This document shows positions 18,851 through 30,291 of a stretch of 64,000 bases of DNA, piece after piece. Source of the DNA: Flavihumibacter fluvii. GTDB taxonomy: Bacteria; Bacteroidota; Bacteroidia; Chitinophagales; Chitinophagaceae. A program made the translations under genes and the position numbers. Every line of letters begins with the position of its first letter. Position 1 is the first letter of the stretch. Below the pieces are notes generated by a model. That model saw only the letters and a list, made by a program, of their open reading frames with translations, was not told the DNA's origin and did not search any database. The stretch covers positions 2,380,001-2,444,000 of the forward strand of contig NZ_CP092333.1 in the NCBI RefSeq assembly GCF_018595675.2, written 5' to 3'.

Positions 18851-20017
18851 ATGGCGCAAAAAATATTCATCTTCGACACCACCCTTCGCGATGGCGAACA
18901 GGTGCCCGGCTGCAAACTGAACAAAAAGGAAAAGATCGAACTGGCCCTCGAACTCGAGGCCCTGGGCGTGGATATCCTTGAAGCCGGTTTCCCGATCTCC
19001 TCACCGGGTGATTTCGATGCCGTTCACGAGATCGCTACCCTGCTGAAAAAGACCGTGGTATGTGGACTCAGTCGCGCTGTACAGAAAGATATTGAAGTAG
19101 CCGCAGCCGCCCTGAAACCGGCCGCGCGCAAACGCATCCATACCGGAATCGGCACCTCCGATTTCCATATTAAGGCCAAGTTTAATTCCACCCGCGAGGA
19201 AATCCTGGTCCGCGCCGTCCAGGCCGTGAAATGGGCCCGGAACTTCACCGATGACGTGGAATTCTACGCCGAAGACGCCGGTCGCACCGATAACGACTAC
19301 CTCGCCCGCGTGGTGGAAGCCGTCATCAAAGCGGGTGCCACTACCGTCAATATTCCCGATACCACCGGCTACTGCCTGCCTTACCAATATGGCGACAAGA
19401 TCGCCTACCTTATTAATAATGTACCGAATATCGACAAGGCTGTGCTGAGCTGCCATTGCCATAATGACCTCGGCCTGGCAACTGCCAATTCCATCGCCGG
19501 CGTGATCGCCGGTGCCCGCCAGATCGAGTGCACCATCAACGGCTTGGGCGAGCGCGCCGGTAATACTTCCCTCGAAGAAGTCGTAATGATCATCAAGCAA
19601 CATGGCCACCTGGGCTTCTATACGGATATCAATGCCAAAGAACTGAACCCCATGAGCCGCAAGGTCTCCGACACCATGCGCATGCCCGTGCAGCCAAATA
19701 AAGCTATAGTAGGCGCCAACGCTTTCTCGCACTCCTCCGGTATCCACCAGGATGGTTTCCTGAAAGACACCACGACCTATGAGATCATCGCGCCTGAAGA
19801 AGTGGGTGCCGACAGTTCAAAGATCGTGCTTACCGCCCGCAGTGGCCGCAGCGCCCTGGCCTACCGGTTCAAGAACCTTGGCCACGAGTTCAACCGTAAC
19901 GATATAGATGCCCTCTACGAGGAATTCCTGAAACTGGCCGATACGCAGAAAGAAGTACACGACGAAGACCTTGAAAGGATGGCCAAAGCCTATGCGGTTA
20001 AAGCCCTGGTTTCTTAA
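18851..20017 (+). CDS. leuA: 2-isopropylmalate synthase, short form
   Basis: 388 residues. Condenses acetyl-CoA with 2-ketoisovalerate, the first step of leucine synthesis. The HMGL-like barrel is complete: [13 protein letters not shown] (Arg13, Asp14), [12 protein letters not shown], metal His202 and His204 in [29 protein letters not shown], and HSSGIHQDG. It ends after the linker subdomains: the C-terminal LeuA regulatory domain of about 130 residues that binds leucine in the classic 500+-residue enzymes is absent. Feedback inhibition by leucine may therefore be lost or work differently. Citramalate and homocitrate synthases are related; context favours LeuA. Its stop overlaps the next start (TAATG). 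Confidence 0.9.
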
Positions 20018-21348
20018 TGAGTGATATCAACACCATATTAGCCTATATCCGGCAGCGCCGGAGCAACCACCTGCTGATCGCCGGATCAGCCGGTAGTGGC
20101 AAAACACGCCTGGCCCGGGCCATCGCCAATGACCCGGAGCTAAGTTCCAGGGTGATTTTCGTGGCCCAGCACTACCATTTTACGAACCGGTCGCATGTGA
20201 ACCAGTTCTACTACCAGCAGCGTTTCAACAGCATCGATGCCGATGATTCAGCTACCGTCGCAGAAGAGCTCGATAAAATCGGCCTGCCCTCGACCGCCCG
20301 CACCCGGCTCCTGCAGGTCTTTGGAATGGAAGGCCGCCAGGATGCGCCCCTCCTTCACCTGAGCAGTGGCGAGCACAAGCGTTTCCAGCTGGTGAAAGCC
20401 TTCCTGCAGCAGCCCGGGATCCTGGTACTGGATGAACCGTTTACCGGGATGGACGCCCGCAGCCGAAGCCTCCTGCGCGCCCTGATGGCCCAACTGGCTG
20501 CCGGCGGTACACAAATTATCCTGGTCTGCAGCAAGGCCGATTGTCCCGATTTCATTGAACTGACCCACCACCTCGATGCGAACCCAGGGGGCGCGGCCCA
20601 TTTCGAGGTGCCTGAACATATAGAACCCCTTCCCTTCCTGGCTGATACCCTGGTGAAGCTCGATAACACCACCATCCGCTATGGCGAGATGACCCTGTTT
20701 GCCGACCTAAGCTGGGCCGTCAGTACCGGTGAACGCTGGTGGCTGAAGGGTGAGAACGGCTCGGGGAAATCCACACTCATCAGCCTGCTCACCGGCGATA
20801 ATCCAAAGGCTTATGCCAACCACCTCGAACTTTTCGGTAAGAAAAGGGGAAGCGGTGAAAGCATCTGGGACATCAAGAAAAATATTGGTTTTGTGTCGCC
20901 CGAACTGCAATGGTATTTCGATAACAGCATGTCTGTTTTCGCCACAATTGCAAGCGGACTTTTCGATACGATCGGACTCTTCCGCAAATTGAATGAGGAA
21001 CAGGACGGCATCGTACGGCAATGGTTGAACGCTTTTGGCCTCACCCACCTGCAGGACAAATCTTTATCGCAGCTATCCAATAGCCAGCAACGCCTCGCTT
21101 TACTGGCCCGTGCCATGGTGAAGAACCCGGCCCTGCTAATCCTCGATGAACCCTGCCAAGGCCTCGATGACCAGCAGATAGACAATTTCAGGAACATCGT
21201 CGATGCCTTGTGTGAGGACCCGAACCGCACCCTGATCTATGTGACGCATTACGACAACGAATTACCACGCTGCATCAATAAAAGTATCCTGTTGCACAAC
21301 CAGCAGGCAACCCTCAAAGCTTACCACTCAACACTCATTCCCGCTTAA
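20017..21348 (+). CDS. Twin-domain ABC ATPase, ModF-like, inside the leu operon
   Basis: 443 residues with two ABC domains and no membrane segment. Domain 1: Walker A GSAGSGKT (23-30), signature LSSGEHKRFQL, Walker B ILVLDEPFTGMDA, but where the H-loop His belongs it reads LVCSKADCPD. Domain 2: Walker A GENGSGKST (about 246-254), signature LSNSQQRLALL, Walker B LLILDEPCQGLDD, and intact H-loop YVTHYDNELP. This arrangement resembles ModF/PhrA, a soluble twin ATPase of unclear function. It overlaps leuA by one base and precedes leuB by 9 bp, so is translated with both. No molybdate transport gene is near. The role in or near leucine synthesis is unknown. Confidence 0.85.
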   Translation: MSDINTILAYIRQRRSNHLLIAGSAGSGKTRLARAIANDPELSSRVIFVAQHYHFTNRSHVNQFYYQQRFNSIDADDSATVAEELDKIGLPSTARTRLLQVFGMEGRQDAPLLHLSSGEHKRFQLVKAFLQQPGILVLDEPFTGMDARSRSLLRALMAQLAAGGTQIILVCSKADCPDFIELTHHLDANPGGAAHFEVPEHIEPLPFLADTLVKLDNTTIRYGEMTLFADLSWAVSTGERWWLKGENGSGKSTLISLLTGDNPKAYANHLELFGKKRGSGESIWDIKKNIGFVSPELQWYFDNSMSVFATIASGLFDTIGLFRKLNEEQDGIVRQWLNAFGLTHLQDKSLSQLSNSQQRLALLARAMVKNPALLILDEPCQGLDDQQIDNFRNIVDALCEDPNRTLIYVTHYDNELPRCINKSILLHNQQATLKAYHSTLIPA

Positions 21349-22473: not shown

Positions 22474-22539
22474 AAAATAATCACAGTTCTTTTTTTAATT
22501 GGATTGGCGGCGTTATATTCGTTGGATAAACGTCCTCCA

Positions 22540-22632
22540 TTGACCTGTAAACTAGTACATACAATTTCTTCTTGCATCACAATTATTATTGTGGTCGTGC
22601 TAGTCATTCCTGTCATACACGGAGGAGGATAA
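22540..22632 (+). CDS. Ile/Val/Leu-rich leader peptide of the ilv operon
   Basis: In the leuB-ilvE gap, the frame ending in TAA at 22630-22632 reads ...TISSC-ITIIIVVVLVIPVI-HGGG-stop. Between 22576 and 22617, 11 of 14 codons are Ile, Val or Leu, including ATT ATT ATT GTG GTC GTG CTA GTC ATT. Such a run before ilv genes is the mark of an attenuation leader. There is no in-frame ATG; I take the TTG at 22540 (30 codons), with TTG at 22504 or 22522 as alternatives. A weak promoter-like TATATTCG lies at 22514-22521. It is followed 28 nt later by an intrinsic terminator. Confidence 0.75.
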   Translation: MTCKLVHTISSCITIIIVVVLVIPVIHGGG

Positions 22633-22660
22633 ACCATACAAGTAATTCAACTGAATACGA

Positions 22661-22693
22661 CGGTCCGCCTCCAAAAGGCGGACCGTTTTTTTT
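22661..22693 (+). terminator. ilv attenuator terminator with competing antiterminator
   Basis: CGGTCCGCCT (22661-22670), a 5-nt loop and AGGCGGACCG (22676-22685) form a perfect 10-bp stem followed by eight T (22686-22693), ending 27 bp before ilvE. The 5' arm can instead pair with GGAGGAGGA (22621-22629), the Gly codons at the end of the leader peptide: it is complementary to TCCGCCTCC (22664-22672) at 8 of 9 positions. A ribosome stalled on the Ile/Val codons leaves that strand free (antitermination); one reaching the stop codon covers it (termination). Confidence 0.85.
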
Positions 22694-22720
22694 ATATAAC
22701 CCCGCCAAAAAAAACAAACT

Positions 22721-23626
22721 ATGGCAGCATATTATAACAACGACACCATGCTCTACCTCGATGGCGCTTATGTAAAGGCCAGCGAGGCGAAGATCGATCT
22801 CTACAGCCAGACCATGCATTATGGTTATGGCGTATTTGAAGGCATCCGTGCCTATCGCACCGAAAACGGTGAAACGAAAATTTTCAAACCGGTGGAGCAT
22901 TATGTACGCCTGGAGCGCTCGGCCCGCTTCCTCAACCTGCCGTACACCTATACCGTTGAAGAACTGATCGAAGCCACCTATAAAGTACTCGAACTGAATA
23001 ACCTGCAGGATGCCTACATCCGGCCCCTGGTGTATGCACCGGCCAATATGAGCTTTGTGCCCAACACCGAATCACATATCACGATACAGGTTTGGGCCAT
23101 GCAGCCTTTCCTGGGCGAGAAATTATTGCGCGTAATGACCTCATCTTACCAGCGGCCCAATCCCAAAGGATTTCATATCGAAGCAAAAGCTTCCGGCCAT
23201 TATGTGAACTCTATCCTTGCCAGCCAGGAAGCGAAAGCGAATGGCTTTGATGAAGCCTTGTTGAATGATATGGACGGCAATATCGCGGAAGGTCCGGGTG
23301 CCAATATTTTCTACGAGAAATTTGGCCGGCTCTATACCCCATCTACCGGAAATATCTTACCAGGCATCACCCGCGCCACCGTGTTTGAACTCGCTGCCCA
23401 AATGGGTGTGGAAGTGGTCGAAAAACAATTCACCACCGCCGAATTGCAAACTGCTGATGCCGCATTTTTCTGTGGCACCGCAGCGGAAGTGATCGGATGG
23501 GAAAGCCTCGATAACACGGCCTTTGCCAATAACTGGAACGACAGCATCGGCAAACAAATCCAGCTCGCCTATAAAGCATTGGTTACAGAATCATCAATAA
23601 AGGAAACATTAAAAGAACTAGCCTAG
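22721..23626 (+). CDS. ilvE: Branched-chain amino acid aminotransferase
   Basis: 301 residues, fold-type IV PLP enzyme making Leu, Ile and Val from their keto acids with glutamate. Visible: [14 protein letters not shown] (32-45), Arg-rich substrate loop [12 protein letters not shown], the Schiff-base Lys156 in [24 protein letters not shown], and [13 protein letters not shown]. Full length. It is the first structural gene after the attenuator; ilvD follows after 2 bp. Glutamate needed for the reaction is made by gltBD at the far end of the same gene run. Confidence 0.95.
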
Positions 23627-23628
23627 TT

Positions 23629-25314
23629 ATGTCAACAGAACTGAACAAATATTCAAAGACGATCACGCAGGATCCCACACAACCCGCAGCACAGGCCATG
23701 CTCTATGGCATTGGCCTGACAGATGAAGACCTGGCGAAGGCCCAGGTGGGTGTGGTGAGCATGGGTTATGATGGCAACACCTGTAACATGCACCTCAACG
23801 ATCTCGCAAAAACCATTAAAGCAAGCATTTGGGAGCAAGACCTGGTCGGGCTGATCTTCAATACCATCGGCGTTTCAGATGGCATCAGTAATGGTACCGA
23901 CGGCATGCGCTATTCCTTAGTGAGCCGTGATATTATTGCAGATTCTATCGAAGCCGTTTGCGGCGCGCAATATTACGACGCCGTGATCGCTGTTCCGGGC
24001 TGTGATAAAAACATGCCCGGATCTATCATGGCCATGGGCCGGCTGAACAGGCCTGCTATCATGGTCTATGGTGGCACAATCGCACCTGGCCATTACAAGG
24101 GCCAGGACCTCAATATTGTGTCGGCTTTCGAAGCACTCGGACAAAAAATTGCCGGGCAACTTTCAGAAGCCGATTTCAAAGGTATCGTGATGAATTCCTG
24201 TCCGGGTGCCGGCGCCTGCGGTGGCATGTACACCGCCAACACCATGTCCTCCGCCATCGAGGCCCTGGGCATGAGCCTGCCCTATTCATCATCGAACCCC
24301 GCGCTCAGCGAAGAGAAGCAACAGGAATGCCGCGATGCCGGTAAAGCTATCAAACTGCTGATGGAAAAAAACATCCTGCCAAAAGATATTATGACCCGCA
24401 AGGCATTTGAAAATGCATTGGTAACGATCATGGTATTGGGCGGATCCACCAACGCCGTCCTGCATTTAATAGCAATGGCAAAAAGTGTGGATGTAAAATT
24501 GACGCAGGATGATGTGCAGGCCGTGAGTAACCGCATTCCGGTGCTCGCCGATTTCAAACCCAGTGGAAAATATTTAATGCAGGACCTCCACGAACATGGT
24601 GGCGTGCCTGCCGTGATGAAATACCTGTTATCAAAGGGACTGCTCCATGGAGATTGCATGACCGTGACCGGAAAGACCATTGCCGAAAACATGGCCACTG
24701 TGCCGGATCTTGATTTCGATGCGCAGAAGATCATCTATCCGCTGGAACAACCATTGAAAGCAACGGGACACTTACAAATTTTGTATGGCAACCTTGCTGA
24801 GAAAGGCAGTGTTGCAAAGATCAGTGGCAAAGAAGGTGAGAAATTTGTTGGTCCGGCTCGTGTCTTCGATGGCGAACAGGAACTCATTGCCGGCATCTCT
24901 TCGGGTCGTGTGCAAAAGGGTGATGTGGTCGTCATCCGCCAGGTAGGCCCGAAAGGCGCGCCGGGTATGCCTGAGATGCTGAAACCGACCTCCGCCATCA
25001 TTGGTGCCGGACTCGGTAAATCTGTCGCGCTGATCACCGATGGCCGGTTCAGTGGTGGCACTCACGGATTCGTTGTTGGGCACATAACACCCGAAGCTTA
25101 TGTTGGCGGATTGATCGCCTTCGTGCAGGACAACGATGTGATCGAACTCGATGCCGTGAAGAACACCATCAATTTGAAAGTGAGCGAAGAAGAAATTGCA
25201 AAGCGCAAATTGAACTGGAAACAACCAGAACTGAAAGCCAAAAAAGGCATTTTGTTTAAATATGCGCAACACGTGAAAGACGCCAGCGAAGGCTGCGTAA
25301 CCGATGAGGCGTAA
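23629..25314 (+). CDS. ilvD: Dihydroxy-acid dehydratase
   Basis: 561 residues. Dehydrates 2,3-dihydroxy-isovalerate and -methylvalerate, the third common step of Ile/Val synthesis. The three Fe-S ligands are Cys52 ([10 protein letters not shown]), Cys125 (PGCDKNMPG) and Cys197 ([16 protein letters not shown]). The Mg site and C-terminal motifs [10 protein letters not shown] and [16 protein letters not shown] are intact. Length and order are normal. Starts 2 bp after ilvE, so translation is likely coupled; ilvB follows after 28 bp. Confidence 0.97.
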
Positions 25315-25342
25315 AACTTTTGATCATCTTATTTGATTTTAT

Positions 25343-27088
25343 ATGAGTACTGTAACAGCAATAGAAAAGAAACCTGAAGCAACAACGGCACCGGCCACTA
25401 CTTCCATCAGCGGATCAGTAGCGGTCCTGGAAGCCTTCATCGCCGAAGGAGTTTCGACGATCTTCGGTTATCCGGGCGGCGCCATCATGCCGATCTACGA
25501 TGCCCTGTATGATTACAACGATAAACTGGAACATATCCTCGTACGCCATGAGCAGGGCGGCATCCATGCTGCACAAGGTTATGCGCGTACCTCCGGAAAA
25601 GTGGGCGTGGTCTTCGCAACCAGCGGTCCGGGTGCCACGAATTTAGTCACCGGTCTCGCCGATGCCATGATTGATTCAACGCCACTGGTTTGTGTTACCG
25701 GCCAGGTCTTCGCGCACTTGCTGGGAACAGATGCATTCCAGGAAACCGATGTCATCAACATCACAACTCCTGTTACCAAATGGAATTACCAGGTGACCGA
25801 TGCAACCGAAATACCGCATGTACTGGCAAAAGCATTTTACATCGCGGGCAGTGGCCGACCCGGTCCTGTGCTGATCGATATCACCAAGAATGCGCAGCTG
25901 CAGAAATTCGATTATGCGGGTTACCAGAAATGCACCCATATCCGCAGCTATCGCCCGAAGCCGATCGTACGCAAGGAATATGTAGAAGAAGCGGCGAAGC
26001 TGATCAATGCTGCAGAGAAACCATTCATATTATTCGGACAGGGAGTGATCCTCGGTCGTGCCGAAAAAGAATTCAAGGCCTTCGTAGAAAAATCAGGTAT
26101 ACCTGCAGCCTGGACCATTTTAGGCGAAAGTGCCATACCAACCGATCATCCGCTCAATGTGGGTATGCTGGGTATGCATGGCAACTATGGACCGAATGTG
26201 CTCACCAACGAATGCGATGTGTTGATCGCCGTGGGTATGCGCTTTGATGACCGTGTAACCGGCCGCCTCGATATATATGCGAAGCAGGCCAAGGTGATCC
26301 ACCTCGATATCGATCCAGCTGAAATAGATAAGAATGTGAAATCAACCGTACCCGTTTGGGGCGATTGTAAGGAGACCCTGCCGATGCTCACGGACCTGAT
26401 CCAGCCAAAAACGTATCCGCAGTGGCTGGCGAAATTCAATGAGTTCAGGAAGCAGGAAGAAGAGATCTGTATCTATCCCGAAATGCATCCTACCGACGAT
26501 GTGATGAGCATGGCCGAAGTGATGAACCTTCTGAATGAGCTGACCAACGGAGACGCAGTAATTGTTACTGATGTTGGTCAGCATCAGATGGTCGCCTGTC
26601 GCTACGCCAAATTCAACCAGTCGAAAAGCAATATCACTTCCGGTGGACTCGGCACCATGGGCTTTGGCCTGCCTGCCGCCATCGGCGCGAAGTACGGCGC
26701 TCCCGAGCGTACAGTTATCGCCATCATTGGTGATGGGGGGATCCAGATGACGATCCAGGAACTCGGCACTATTATGCAGTTCGGTGCCGCAGTGAAGATC
26801 ATCATCCTGAACAACCAGTTCCTCGGAATGGTACGCCAGTGGCAGCAGCTCTTCCACGACAAACGATATTCATTTGTGAATATCACGAGTCCCGATTATA
26901 TCATGGTCGCTAATGGCTACCATATTGCCGCGCAAAAAGTGGAACACCGTGAACAATTGCGGCAGGCACTAACCACCATGCTCAACCACAACGGCGCCTA
27001 CCTCCTGGAGATCATGGTAGGCAAAGAGAACAATGTATTCCCGATGGTACCACAGGGATGCAGTGTGGCGGAGATAAGGCTGAAATGA
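25343..27088 (+). CDS. ilvB: Acetolactate synthase, catalytic subunit
   Basis: 581 residues. TPP-dependent formation of acetolactate and acetohydroxybutyrate. A poorly conserved Thr/Ala-rich N-terminus of about 22 residues precedes the Pyr domain. The TPP-activating Glu70 is in LVRHEQGGIHAAQGYAR; GTDAFQETDVI and the FAD-binding middle domain follow; the TPP/Mg motif is GDGGIQMTIQEL with NNQFLGMVRQWQ (region contacted by feedback and herbicide ligands). It pairs with ilvN; the 102-bp gap to ilvN contains a perfect 24-bp inverted repeat. Confidence 0.97.
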   Translation: MSTVTAIEKKPEATTAPATTSISGSVAVLEAFIAEGVSTIFGYPGGAIMPIYDALYDYNDKLEHILVRHEQGGIHAAQGYARTSGKVGVVFATSGPGATNLVTGLADAMIDSTPLVCVTGQVFAHLLGTDAFQETDVINITTPVTKWNYQVTDATEIPHVLAKAFYIAGSGRPGPVLIDITKNAQLQKFDYAGYQKCTHIRSYRPKPIVRKEYVEEAAKLINAAEKPFILFGQGVILGRAEKEFKAFVEKSGIPAAWTILGESAIPTDHPLNVGMLGMHGNYGPNVLTNECDVLIAVGMRFDDRVTGRLDIYAKQAKVIHLDIDPAEIDKNVKSTVPVWGDCKETLPMLTDLIQPKTYPQWLAKFNEFRKQEEEICIYPEMHPTDDVMSMAEVMNLLNELTNGDAVIVTDVGQHQMVACRYAKFNQSKSNITSGGLGTMGFGLPAAIGAKYGAPERTVIAIIGDGGIQMTIQELGTIMQFGAAVKIIILNNQFLGMVRQWQQLFHDKRYSFVNITSPDYIMVANGYHIAAQKVEHREQLRQALTTMLNHNGAYLLEIMVGKENNVFPMVPQGCSVAEIRLK

Positions 27089-27091
27089 ATA

Positions 27092-27158
27092 GTGAATGGT
27101 GAATAGTGAATGGGAAAAACGAACCCCCTTTCTCTCCCATTCACTATTCACCATTCAC
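27092..27158. repeat. Perfect 24-bp inverted repeat (GTGAATGGTGAAT family) between ilvB and ilvN
   Basis: The left arm 27092-27115 (GTGAATGGTGAATAGTGAAT then GGGA) is exactly complementary to 27135-27158, with a 19-nt loop. The arms are themselves built from repeated GTGAATG/GTGAATA units. It starts 4 nt after the ilvB stop codon. In RNA it makes a very stable hairpin without a T-run, so more likely an intra-operon stability or processing element, or a short mobile repeat, than a terminator. Related, less perfect copies occur at 28964-29030 and 34911-34974. Confidence 0.85.
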
Positions 27159-27190
27159 TCTGAATTTAAGAACGTTCAAAAATTGTAAAA

Positions 27191-27781
27191 ATGCTTAAAC
27201 AGGAATACACCCTTACCGTATACACCGAAAACCAGATCGGGTTGCTCACGCGGATCGCGATTATTTTTTCGCGCAGGAAGATCAATGTGGAGAGCCTGAA
27301 TACATCGCCCTCTGAGATAGAAAATATCCATCGCTTCAATATCGTAATCAACGAGACCGAAGATGTGGTGCGTAAATTGTGCCGCCAGATCGAAAAGCAG
27401 GTAGAAGTGTTGAAAGCCTATTATAGTAGCAATGATGAGATTATCTGGCAGGAGCTGGCGCTTTACAAAGTGCCCACCGACCAGGTAGCCGAGAAAGTGC
27501 AGGTAGAACGGTTATTGCGCCAGTATGGTGCACGCGCCGTGGTGATCCGCAGTGATTACACCGTGTTCGAAGCCACCGGACACCGTGAGGAAACCGATAA
27601 GATCCTCGAGATCCTCGCACCATATGGACTCATCGAATTCGTGCGCAGCGCAAGGGTAGCCATCATCAAGAAAAGCAAAGGCTTCCACGAAAAACTGCAG
27701 CAGTTCGAACAAAGCGAACCCGGTGAAGAAGTGATTGAAAACGAATACCTCGGCGATAATGCAGGTGTTTTTTCAATGTAA
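27191..27781 (+). CDS. ilvN: Acetolactate synthase, small regulatory subunit
   Basis: 196 residues with an N-terminal ACT domain (YTLTVYTENQIGLLTRIAIIF, then RRKINVESLN) and a second ACT-like C-terminal domain (VIRSDYTVFEATGHREETDKI). It binds valine and confers feedback inhibition on IlvB. Longer than the E. coli ilvN type, similar to the two-domain ilvH type. Flanked on both sides by palindromic intergenic repeats. Confidence 0.93.
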   Translation: MLKQEYTLTVYTENQIGLLTRIAIIFSRRKINVESLNTSPSEIENIHRFNIVINETEDVVRKLCRQIEKQVEVLKAYYSSNDEIIWQELALYKVPTDQVAEKVQVERLLRQYGARAVVIRSDYTVFEATGHREETDKILEILAPYGLIEFVRSARVAIIKKSKGFHEKLQQFEQSEPGEEVIENEYLGDNAGVFSM

Positions 27782-27785
27782 AATA

Positions 27786-27861
27786 TCACGCAAAGTCGCA
27801 AAGAAGCAAAGCCGCTAAGGCAAAACTCTTTGCGCCACTGCTCCTTGGCGGCTTTGCGTGA
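27786..27861. repeat. Palindromic repeat (TCACGCAAAG family) between ilvN and ilvC
   Basis: TCACGCAAAG (27786-27795) and CTTTGCGTGA (27852-27861) are perfect 10-bp termini. Inside, AAAGCCGCTAAGG pairs with CCTTGGCGGCTTT with one mismatch, and CGCAAAG-like units recur. It begins 4 nt after the ilvN stop codon region and ends 43 bp before ilvC. A second member of the family lies between thrB and thrC. Confidence 0.8.
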
Positions 27862-27903
27862 AAAATAAAAACAACAAACAAAACCAATAAACAATCTAAA
27901 AAA

Positions 27904-28959
27904 ATGGCAAAGTTAAATTTCGGCGGCGTGGAAGAAAATGTAGTCACTCGCGAAGAGTTTCCACTCGCAAAAGCACAGCAGGTATTAAAAGATGAAGTTG
28001 TTGCTGTGATCGGATATGGCGTACAAGGTCCGGGCCAGGCCCTCAACCAGCGTGATAATGGTATCAATGTGATCGTAGGCCAGCGTAAAGACTCCAAAAG
28101 CTGGGATAAAGCCGTTGCAGACGGATTCGTTCCCGGCGTGACCTTGTTTGAAATCGAAGAAGCCTTACAACGCGGTACCATCATTTGTTACCTGCTAAGT
28201 GATGCTGCCCAGATCGCCCTCTGGCCAACTGTAAAAAAACACCTTACACCAGGTAAAGCATTATATTTCTCCCATGGCTTTGGCATCACGTTCAACGAGC
28301 AGACCGGTATCATCCCCCCTGCCGATGTTGATGTATTCCTCGTAGCACCAAAAGGAAGTGGCACATCATTGCGCCGCATGTTCCTGCAGGGCCGCGGACT
28401 AAACAGCTCTTATGCCATTTTCCAGGACGCCACCGGTAAAGCAAAAGACCGCGTGATCGCCCTTGGTATTGCAGTAGGTAGCGGTTACCTCTTCGAGACC
28501 AACTTCAAGAAAGAAGTATACTCTGACCTGACCGGTGAACGTGGTACCCTGATGGGCGCCATCCAGGGCATCTTTGCTGCACAGTACCAGGTGCTGCGCG
28601 ACAAAGGCCATACGCCTTCTGAAGCATTCAACGAAACTGTAGAAGAGCTGACCCAATCCCTGATGCCATTGGTAGCAGAGAACGGTATGGACTGGATGTA
28701 TGCCAACTGTTCAACTACTGCACAACGAGGTGCGCTGGACTGGTGGAAGAAATTCCGTGATGCAACTGCGCCCGTTTTCAAGGAACTTTATGAAAGCGTT
28801 GCTACTGGAAAAGAATCACAGCGTTCCATCGACCTGAACAGCCAACCCGACTATCGCGCAAAACTGGAAATCGAACTGAAAGAACTCCGCGATAGCGAAA
28901 TGTGGCAGGCCGGTAAAACAGTGCGTAGCCTCCGCCCGGAAAACCAGGCAGCGAAATAA
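27904..28959 (+). CDS. ilvC: Ketol-acid reductoisomerase (class I)
   Basis: 351 residues, short class I form. NADPH-dependent isomerisation and reduction of acetolactate. The N-terminal Rossmann motif is VAVIGYGVQGPGQALNQRD with the cofactor-specificity loop VIVGQRKDSKSW. Next come YFSHGFGITFNEQ and the metal-binding knotted domain with SDLTGERGTLMGAIQGIF (Asp and Glu metal ligands) and NETVEELTQSLMPLV. Flanked upstream and downstream by hairpin repeats. Confidence 0.95.
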   Translation: MAKLNFGGVEENVVTREEFPLAKAQQVLKDEVVAVIGYGVQGPGQALNQRDNGINVIVGQRKDSKSWDKAVADGFVPGVTLFEIEEALQRGTIICYLLSDAAQIALWPTVKKHLTPGKALYFSHGFGITFNEQTGIIPPADVDVFLVAPKGSGTSLRRMFLQGRGLNSSYAIFQDATGKAKDRVIALGIAVGSGYLFETNFKKEVYSDLTGERGTLMGAIQGIFAAQYQVLRDKGHTPSEAFNETVEELTQSLMPLVAENGMDWMYANCSTTAQRGALDWWKKFRDATAPVFKELYESVATGKESQRSIDLNSQPDYRAKLEIELKELRDSEMWQAGKTVRSLRPENQAAK

Positions 28960-28963
28960 AATT

Positions 28964-29030
28964 GGTGAACAGTAAACAGTAAACGGTGAACGGGAGATTC
29001 CTGTTTACCGTTTACCGTTCACCGTTTACC
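28964..29030. repeat. Imperfect inverted repeat (GTAAACGGTGAAC family) between ilvC and ilvA
   Basis: The left half (28964-28995) and right half (29000-29030) are built from GTGAAC/GTAAAC units and pair along about 30 positions. All the differences I see are A/G, so they can be G-U pairs in RNA. It fills nearly the whole 81-bp gap. Same general design as the ilvB-ilvN repeat with a diverged core word. Confidence 0.75.
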
Positions 29031-29040
29031 TTCTTATGAT

Positions 29041-30291
29041 ATGACCCTCAACAGCACGTCCATACTAGATTACACTTCCGCAGCACTACGACTAAAAAAA
29101 GTGGTGAATCGCACCCCCCTGCAATTCAACCACAACCTGTCGCGTCGCTTTGGTGCAAATATCTACCTGAAGCGTGAAGACCTTCAGGTGGTGCGGAGCT
29201 ATAAGTTGCGTGGAGCATACAACCTGATGAGTACCCTGCCACCGGAGCAATTGAAAAACGGTGTGGTTTGTGCCAGTGCGGGCAACCATGCGCAGGGATT
29301 CGCGTATAGTTGCAGCAAGCTGAAAGTTAAAGGCGTGGTCTTCATGCCCATCATCACGCCCAACCAGAAAGTATCACAGACGAAAATGTTTGGTGGCGAA
29401 TGGATCGAAATCAAACTGGTGGGCGATACCTTCGACGATTGCGCCATCGCTGCAAAAGCTTATACAGCAGAACATAACATGGCCTTCATCCCGCCTTTCG
29501 ATAACGAAAAGATCATCGAAGGCCAGGGCACGGTGGGTGTAGAGATCCTCGACGACCTGTCCGACATCGATTATGTCTTCATTCCCGTTGGCGGCGGTGG
29601 ACTCAGCGCCGGCGTGGGCCAATACCTCAAAACCTTTTCCCCGAAAACAAAGATCATTGGCGTAGAACCAGAAGGTGCGCCATCCATGTTCAAAGCCCTC
29701 AAAGCAGGCCATCCCGTTACGCTCGACAGTATCGAAAGATTCGTCGACGGCGCAGCGGTAAAACGGGTCGGCGAAATTCCCTTCGCCATCTGCAAGGAAG
29801 TGCTTGATGATATGTTGCTGGTGAACGAGGGCAAGATTTGCTCCGTGATCCTGAAGCTCTACAACGAAGACGCAATCGTAGCAGAACCGGCAGGCGCGCT
29901 ATCCATCGCTGCACTTGACCAGTATGCAGATAAGATCAAGGGTAAAAACGTCGTGTGCATCGTGAGTGGCAGCAATAACGATATCGATCGCATGCAGGAG
30001 ATCAAGGAAAGATCCCTGCAGTACGAAGGGCTTAAGCATTATTTCCTGGTCCGTTTTGCACAAAGGCCGGGAGCACTGAAAGAATTTGTGAACCATATCC
30101 TGGGCCCCAACGACGACATCACCCGCTTCGAATACATGCAAAAGCACAACAAGGAATCGGGTCCGGCACTCGTGGGCATAGAACTAAAAAATCCGGAAGA
30201 TTTCGATATCCTATTGAAAAATATGCAGTTATATAATATCAATTATACCGAGCTGAACAAGGATGATAACTTGTTTGGGTACCTGGTGTAA
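29041..30291 (+). CDS. ilvA: Threonine dehydratase (biosynthetic)
   Basis: 416 residues. PLP enzyme making 2-oxobutyrate from threonine, the entry to isoleucine. Schiff-base Lys55 in VRSYKLRGAYN, the substrate loop ASAGNHAQGFAY, the PLP-phosphate glycine loop PVGGGGLSAGVG, and the cofactor-ring Ser in CIVSGSNND. The C-terminal part from about 325 (LKHYFLVRFAQRPGALKEFV) is a single ACT-like regulatory domain, shorter than in the E. coli enzyme. It links the thr operon product (46-54 kb) to the ilv pathway. gltB follows after 105 bp. Confidence 0.94.
   Translation: MTLNSTSILDYTSAALRLKKVVNRTPLQFNHNLSRRFGANIYLKREDLQVVRSYKLRGAYNLMSTLPPEQLKNGVVCASAGNHAQGFAYSCSKLKVKGVVFMPIITPNQKVSQTKMFGGEWIEIKLVGDTFDDCAIAAKAYTAEHNMAFIPPFDNEKIIEGQGTVGVEILDDLSDIDYVFIPVGGGGLSAGVGQYLKTFSPKTKIIGVEPEGAPSMFKALKAGHPVTLDSIERFVDGAAVKRVGEIPFAICKEVLDDMLLVNEGKICSVILKLYNEDAIVAEPAGALSIAALDQYADKIKGKNVVCIVSGSNNDIDRMQEIKERSLQYEGLKHYFLVRFAQRPGALKEFVNHILGPNDDITRFEYMQKHNKESGPALVGIELKNPEDFDILLKNMQLYNINYTELNKDDNLFGYLV

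Follow-up and report, generated by a model that had tools for sequence, protein, structure and literature searches.

The gap between leuB and ilvE in the window (the whole 64,000-nucleotide stretch of DNA analysed here) most probably holds a ribosome-mediated transcription attenuator. Judging from its sequence and that of its relatives, the element would set the expression of ilvEDBNCA according to the supply of charged tRNA-Ile and tRNA-Val and, slightly, of charged tRNA-Leu. Between the two genes lie a promoter-like box, a frame of 30 codons ending in ITIIIVVVLVIPVIHGGG-stop, and a 12-bp terminator with eight T (Table 1). The same switch recurs in many related bacteria and is therefore very probably real.

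Layout of the locus and proposed mechanism

The genes under control are those for Ile and Val synthesis, as identified by NCBIfam matches in the window, and the upstream side consists of leuA, a ModF-like ABC protein and leuB. The ModF-like gene, a double ABC ATPase (20017-21348; best match, under its cut-off), occupies the leuA-leuB interval, in which two other genes are found in the three relatives read. A sequence-only reading of positions 22540-22720 (181 bases) had described a short frame at 22576-22632 with its stop, a perfect 10-bp stem, eight T, and a competing strand at 22621-22629. Every element reported was found in place, exact to the base; the codon at 22576 is ATC and the stop codon is TAA (22630-22632).

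Table 1. Features of the candidate attenuator and the genes downstream of it, in window coordinates.
Feature	Position	Strand	Basis
-33-like promoter box GTTCTTT	22486..22492	+	read from sequence; similar boxes precede most aligned leaders
-7-like promoter box TATATTCG	22514..22521	+	script and alignment
possible strand 1 (TCCTCC directly before start codon)	22533..22538	+	MFE fold; partner is strand 2 when ribosome absent
leader peptide frame, TTG start, LTCKLVHTISSCITIIIVVVLVIPVIHGGG-stop	22540..22632	+	sequence; TTG aligns with ATG of relatives
regulatory codon run Ile-Ile-Ile-Val-Val-Val-Leu-Val-Ile	22582..22608	+	codon composition of 43 leaders
strand 2, antiterminator GGAGGAGGA	22621..22629	+	sequence, pairing statistics, swap test, folding
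strand 3, terminator 5' arm	22659..22670	+	antiterminator partner is 22663-22672
strand 4: terminator 3' arm 22676-22687, T run 22686-22693	22676..22693	+	sequence, covariation, folding
ilvE, first downstream gene	22721..23626	+	NCBIfam TIGR01122 and NF005146 above cut-off
ilvD, ilvB, ilvN, ilvC, ilvA	23629..30291	+	NCBIfam TIGR00110, TIGR00118, TIGR00119, TIGR00465, TIGR02079 above cut-off

From this arrangement we infer the following course of events. RNA polymerase would start at about 22526-22530, and a ribosome would initiate at TTG 22540 without a Shine-Dalgarno sequence. When Ile and Val are ample, the ribosome would reach the stop codon and cover strand 2, leaving strands 3 and 4 to pair as the terminator, and the transcript would end at about 22693. 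Upon starvation for Ile or Val the ribosome would stall within 22582-22608, where its front edge does not quite reach strand 2; the freed strand 2 would pair with strand 3 while strand 4 is still to be transcribed, thus allowing the polymerase to continue into ilvE.

The two boxes in the window, 21 nt apart, are promoter-like under what we take to be the Bacteroidota promoter consensus. Among 43 aligned leaders (see below), a script placed a TAnnTT-type box 14-21 nt upstream of the start codon in 38, and 30 and 33 nt upstream in L032 and L034, respectively; in L013, L026 and L042 such a box is visible by eye in the alignment. The element thus has a promoter-like box of its own (22486-22521); transcripts reading through from leuB would cross the attenuator too, so the ilv genes would be attenuated from both transcript sources.

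Conservation of the leader in relatives

A search for IlvE in 117 genomes of the family gave matches in 42 at E <= 1e-40, and the upstream regions of 40 of these were read (G043 and G076 were left out as fragments, and in G047 the second, weaker IlvE piece was used, since the gene start lies on it). Six further genomes of the same genus were added, with L048 of G127 left out as a fragment, giving a total of 46 regions including the window. One region from the genus, L044, is identical to Flavihumibacter sp. ZG627 over 3879 bases.

A leader frame, strand 2 and a terminator precede ilvE in 43 of the 46 regions, the window counted. The sequence-only reading had proposed that an attenuator operates here in a Bacteroidota and had suggested aligning relatives; the alignment argues for the proposal, with the Ile/Val codon run, the antiterminator strand and a terminator with compensatory changes all conserved.

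The three regions that lack the leader (L027, L030 and L037) have the gene order leuA, two more genes, leuB, ilvE, and a stretch of nine codons with eight for Ile/Val was not found in any of them. One of these three genomes, G004, carries a strong copy elsewhere (E 4.4e-16), before a gene for a 98-residue ACT-domain protein with a weak, below-cut-off match to the acetolactate synthase small subunit; this ilv-type leader lies away from ilvE, at about 3231-3349 of L132 on the minus strand. The other two, G057 and G077, gave no match to the ilv model. In all three genomes the region ahead of leuA was searched for a Leu/Ile/Val leader; the script gave a few weak matches, none of them convincing. 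The stretch before leuA in the window, also considered as a leader, does not look like one.

The 43 leaders share a clear codon signature. In the 15 codons before strand 2 (645 codons in all) Ile occurs 226 times, Val 176, Ala 54, Leu 38 and Pro 37, so the short frame is rich in codons for the products of the pathway. The second codon position is T in 91-100% of the leaders across nine consecutive codons. On average the commonest base takes a share of 0.66 at the first, 0.82 at the second and 0.54 at the third codon position. This three-base periodicity across the codon run points to translation, and a scan of the window against Rfam gave 0 matches at gathering score; both speak against the view that the small frame is incidental to a ligand-binding riboswitch or T-box, a reading that we find hardly credible even if a terminator ahead of biosynthesis genes is the plan of a riboswitch too. 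By script, 38 leaders start with ATG, and inspection by eye adds L013 and L026. GTG is the start codon of L025 and, again by eye, of L042, and the window has TTG. A non-AUG start, as had been suggested, is plausible because TTG 22540 aligns with the ATG of the relatives.

The terminator

The stem between the leader and the first gene consists of ten perfect pairs (22661-22670/22676-22685), or 12 with the two outer ones (22659-22670/22676-22687), and is followed by eight T, as expected of an intrinsic terminator. The segment 22642-22693 folds at -24.6 kcal/mol (z -6.17), a value equalled by 0 of 200 shuffles. Nine terminator pairs were scored in alignment A1, which contains the 43 leader rows. 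Pairing was retained in 95.9% of cells and 62 cells were changed on both sides, and 0 of 500 shuffles reached either number. Two-sided changes were seen in seven of the nine pairs (0 of 500 shuffles reached seven), and the number of further pair types was reached by 1 of 500 shuffles.

Leader peptides acting on translation exist, and the leader stop codon lies only 88 nt upstream of ilvE, so the leader could be imagined to control ilvE translation or RNA stability through stalling rather than termination. We give this very little credence, because a terminator with a T run was found in 43 of 46 regions, and an Ile/Val frame then proved to be present before each of the 43. Moreover, the distance from terminator to gene is not constant: ahead of ilvE it runs from about 9 to 133 nt, and ahead of ilvD it can be as long as about 216 nt.

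The antiterminator

Strand 2 is complementary to TCCGCCTCC (22664-22672) at eight of nine positions, as the sequence-only reading had stated, with one A:G mismatch (22626 with 22667). When the terminator 3' arm is omitted, 22619-22676 folds at -16.3 kcal/mol (z -3.27; 1 of 200 shuffles equal), with GGAGG paired to CCTCC and, past one mismatch, four further pairs. As the antiterminator is weaker than the terminator (-16.3 vs -24.6), it must win by timing.

Eight strand 2/3 pairs were scored in A1. They form in 93.3% of cells, compared to 50.9-72.1% for versions slid along the alignment, and their covariation score was reached by 2 of 500 shuffles. Double changes occur in two pairs (reached by 62 of 500 shuffles) and four cells (1 of 500), and the slid versions give up to four doubly changed pairs and seven such cells. 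Covariation of strands 2 and 3 within the family is thus modest, because strand 2 hardly varies there; a divergent couple is GGAAGTGG with CCACTTCC in L120. Beyond the family, strand 2 and its partner change together: GGGAATGG with CCATTCTC in L111, TGCGGGA with TCCCGCA in L113, and GTGAGA with TCTCAC in Chryseobacterium.

The match between strand 2 and its partner was also assessed by a swap test on 20 hand-picked divergent leaders, in which the tested stretch was cut ten bases past the stop. Own strand 2/3 pairs had a mean of -13.4 kcal/mol vs -9.2 kcal/mol for swapped ones, and 0 of 5000 permutations were as good. The own partner was not favoured in four of the 20 (L110, L112, L114 and L115); in L112 and L115 at least, strand 2 follows the stop and lies partly outside the stretch tested. 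In all 43 aligned leaders the own duplex beats the mean of 50 strand 2 shuffles. An antiterminator whose pairing would exclude the terminator is consequently predicted throughout the alignment, with modest covariation in the family and four of 20 leaders failing the swap.

The whole leader (22528-22693) folds at -52.3 kcal/mol (z -5.52). This fold contains the terminator, and in it strand 2 pairs with the TCCTCC before the start codon, the possible strand 1; in an attenuator such a hairpin would serve for pausing and for termination by default. In the window this predicted pairing of strands 1 and 2 was matched by 0 of 100 shuffles. Over 40 leaders the hairpin is weak on average (median -8.1 vs -6.0 for shuffles), and a search for a conserved strand 1 among them gave a weak signal, conservation of the hairpin not being clear.

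Ribosome geometry

Strand 2 begins 0-18 nt before the stop in 43 of 43 leaders, so a ribosome that has reached the stop codon would sit on it. Measured from the start of the last codon in the longest Ile/Val run, the distance to strand 2 is 15 nt in 35 of the 43, 12 nt in three, and 14, 18, 24, 24 and 32 nt in the remainder. By a strict Ile/Val count the window is one of the two leaders at 24 nt, because Leu interrupts its run; with Leu allowed, its last run codon, ATT 22606, starts 15 nt before strand 2. Given the usual size of a ribosome footprint, a ribosome stalled in the main run would end just before strand 2. Further on in the window leader come a Val codon (22612) and an Ile codon (22615); a ribosome halted there would lie over strand 2. 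The geometry put forward earlier, in which stalling frees strand 2 and a ribosome at the stop codon covers it, hence fits as spacing, on the usual footprint size.

This spacing bears on whether the frame encodes a small hydrophobic membrane protein, with the terminator merely dividing leu from ilv transcription. The peptide is indeed hydrophobic and conserved, and leuB lies directly upstream. Such a protein gives no reason, however, for the 15-nt distance to strand 2 or for the covariation of the strand 2 partner in other families, and a terminator located 3' of an internal promoter-like box would only lower ilv expression. In addition, L006 and L046 retain strand 2 with the reading frame across it shifted (EVV instead of GGG), and therefore the RNA, not the peptide, is kept there. 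We consider a membrane protein very improbable, and the arrangement far better explained by attenuation.

Distribution and controls

Model R1 matched 64 of 298 genomes of the order (E <= 0.001, strict filters), of which 51 belong to the family and 13 to other families; the remaining 234 of the 298 gave no match to the model. All 15 genomes of the genus match. The own genome has one R1 match; a second ilv leader was sought in it at E <= 10 and none was convincing, the next best having E 1.1. Of the 66 R1 places listed, 27 were read. The majority (18) lead into ilvE or ilvD, in agreement with control of the genes for the same amino acids that are prominent in the codon run. Of the rest, one lies ahead of an ACT-domain gene, one ahead of a cysteine-synthase-like gene, and two, with Phe/Tyr leaders, ahead of a pheA-like gene. 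The five others (L117, L118, L125, L128 and L129; E 2.9e-4 to 9.4e-4) look like chance terminators. Outside the family, 11 of 13 R1 places were read, comprising six ilv, one cys and four chance places.

The leader can precede ilvD in relatives where ilvE is not adjacent. An Ile/Val detector matched 40 of 80 named ilvD loci, a set that overlaps the IlvE-derived one (L163 = L044). Dropping one locus that lacks upstream DNA makes this 40 of 79; the reverse strand gave 1 of 79, and each of five shuffles gave 0 of 79. Matches include Niastella, Longitalea, Segetibacter, Sediminibacterium, Ferruginibacter, Chitinophaga, Chryseobacterium and Elizabethkingia; Pedobacter (L227, L228 and L237) was added through a relaxed scan and the model, and L232 gave a weak model match only (E 0.015). 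The detector found no match at 40 of the 80 named loci; among the 14 of these 40 that were read, ilvD lies directly 3' of leuB or ilvE in several. Other amino-acid pairs gave 0-3 matches in 79 loci, except Leu/Phe with 12 and Leu/Ser with 16. Eight of the 12 and 13 of the 16 sit at the terminator of an Ile/Val match and are therefore the same leaders in another frame; most of the remainder are Leu-rich Pedobacter frames.

When both strands of the 64 kb were searched for frames enriched in any of 12 amino-acid sets and followed by a terminator and an antiterminator strand, the attenuator site was the only place returned. A search of the own genome for the GGAGG/CCTCC/GG.GG pattern found the attenuator site (as two overlapping rows) and one bare-pattern match on the reverse strand; reversed as a control, the pattern matched twice.

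Other candidate leaders in the phylum

A search for PheA-like proteins in 60 family genomes matched 42, and the best 30 of the 42 loci were analysed. A Phe/Tyr-rich frame (at least six in 25 codons) and a terminator precede pheA in 30 of these best 30, compared to 2, 0 and 2 of 30 in controls; by script, nine of the 30 lack an antiterminator strand. As a Phe/Tyr leader is present in all 30 family pheA loci read, attenuation would not be peculiar to ilv here. In the own genome a Phe/Tyr-rich leader, MIKANAFSRFYFYFYFFTSRRPAMLCVGSTK, and a terminator precede a prephenate dehydratase gene (L246 1340-1482; C1 about 917560-917703).

Leaders of other kinds were encountered as well. At about 250-370 of L116, a leader frame with five consecutive Cys codons and a terminator precede a cysteine-synthase-like gene, and from its sequence this may be a cysteine attenuator. 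Eight of eight Chryseobacterium loci (L216, L218, L220, L221, L222, L225, L226 and L229; about 1080-1440) show, by eye, two ilv attenuators in tandem, which differ in peptides and in strand 2/3 sequences. In six of these eight loci both attenuators are also detected by the ilv model, with weak scores for the upstream one (E 0.002-0.03). In Pedobacter L227, L228 and L237, a Leu-rich frame ending like LLNLLLLNILGKK lies before a terminator more than 1 kb 5' of ilvD; it is possibly a leucine leader, distinct from the short ilv leader adjoining ilvD.

A broader reading, which we regard as possible and, on balance, somewhat doubtful, is that leader-peptide attenuation is a general and old form of control in Bacteroidota, for Ile/Val, Phe/Tyr and perhaps Cys, that works without Shine-Dalgarno recognition. 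It would rely on close coupling of the leader ribosome to RNA polymerase and on a 15-nt ruler from the last regulatory codon to the antiterminator strand, with two such devices in series in Chryseobacterium. With the anti-Shine-Dalgarno hidden in ribosomes of this class, GGAGG, a perfect Shine-Dalgarno core, would be free to act as antiterminator. According to the accessible parts of two reports, Bacteroidota ribosomes ignore Shine-Dalgarno sequences (PMC9976891, PMC6847099). A conserved leader with a fixed ruler would offer a direct in vivo test of ribosome-polymerase coupling in Bacteroidota, and annotators would gain a control element that has no Rfam gathering-score match in the window.

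Comparison with known systems

Amino-acid attenuation is textbook knowledge in Proteobacteria and is known in Actinobacteria. Within the phylum, the Bacteroid-trp RNA motif (RF01692) is linked with trp genes; its covariance model had no match in the own genome or the window. The motif is listed as a likely cis-regulatory RNA of Bacteroidetes in the part of PMC2864571 available. A paper from 2010 states, in its accessible part, that leader peptide systems were then known only from Proteobacteria and Actinobacteria, to which it added Firmicutes (PMC2965389), and the available text of another describes leader genes across many phyla including Bacteroidetes, citing Lopatovskaya 2010 (PMC4833913). 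Leader-like short frames are mentioned in Bacteroides (PMC7366714, in part), and strong clues for leader-peptide attenuation before amino-acid operons are noted for Flavobacterium psychrophilum (PMC9723704, in part). The latter case resembles ours in phylum, in the type of operon (amino-acid biosynthesis) and in leader-peptide logic; the passage available names no operon or sequence, and an ilv leader may be included. Given this source, as far as its accessible part goes, the logic of attenuation is not new for the phylum. For Bacteroidota, the print found, as far as it was accessible, holds only remarks (PMC9723704, PMC7366714) and the Bacteroid-trp motif (PMC2864571). Among the literature matches listed, with most subscription papers outside the coverage, none described an ilv attenuator of Chitinophaga or Bacteroidetes. 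Judged from its sequence, the ilv attenuator is very likely functional, was not found described for this lineage within the literature covered, and follows an old principle.

The tandem ilv leaders of Chryseobacterium can be compared with the tandem attenuators of Salmonella mgtCBR, which likewise have two short frames in one leader and differ in genes and signals, according to the part of PMC3641672 available.

The closest counterpart of the window leader is ilvL of E. coli K-12 (leader of ilvXGMEDA, NC_000913.3), which also has an Ile/Val-rich peptide and a terminator-like hairpin with a T run ahead of the same pathway. The motif VVVIIIP is common in the family (22582-22614 in the window), in several members as GTGGTGGTGATTATTAT at the DNA level, and it is shared by the ilvL peptide (MTALLRVISLVVISVVVIIIPPCGAALGRGKA) and IIIVVVIIIPATHGGG of L010 and L040. 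Because it occurs in both, common descent with E. coli ilvL was considered, alongside convergence, as the origin of the likeness. The two leaders differ in start codon, ATG in ilvL and TTG in the window, and, unlike ilvL, the window leader has its own promoter-like box and is embedded in a leu-ilv run.
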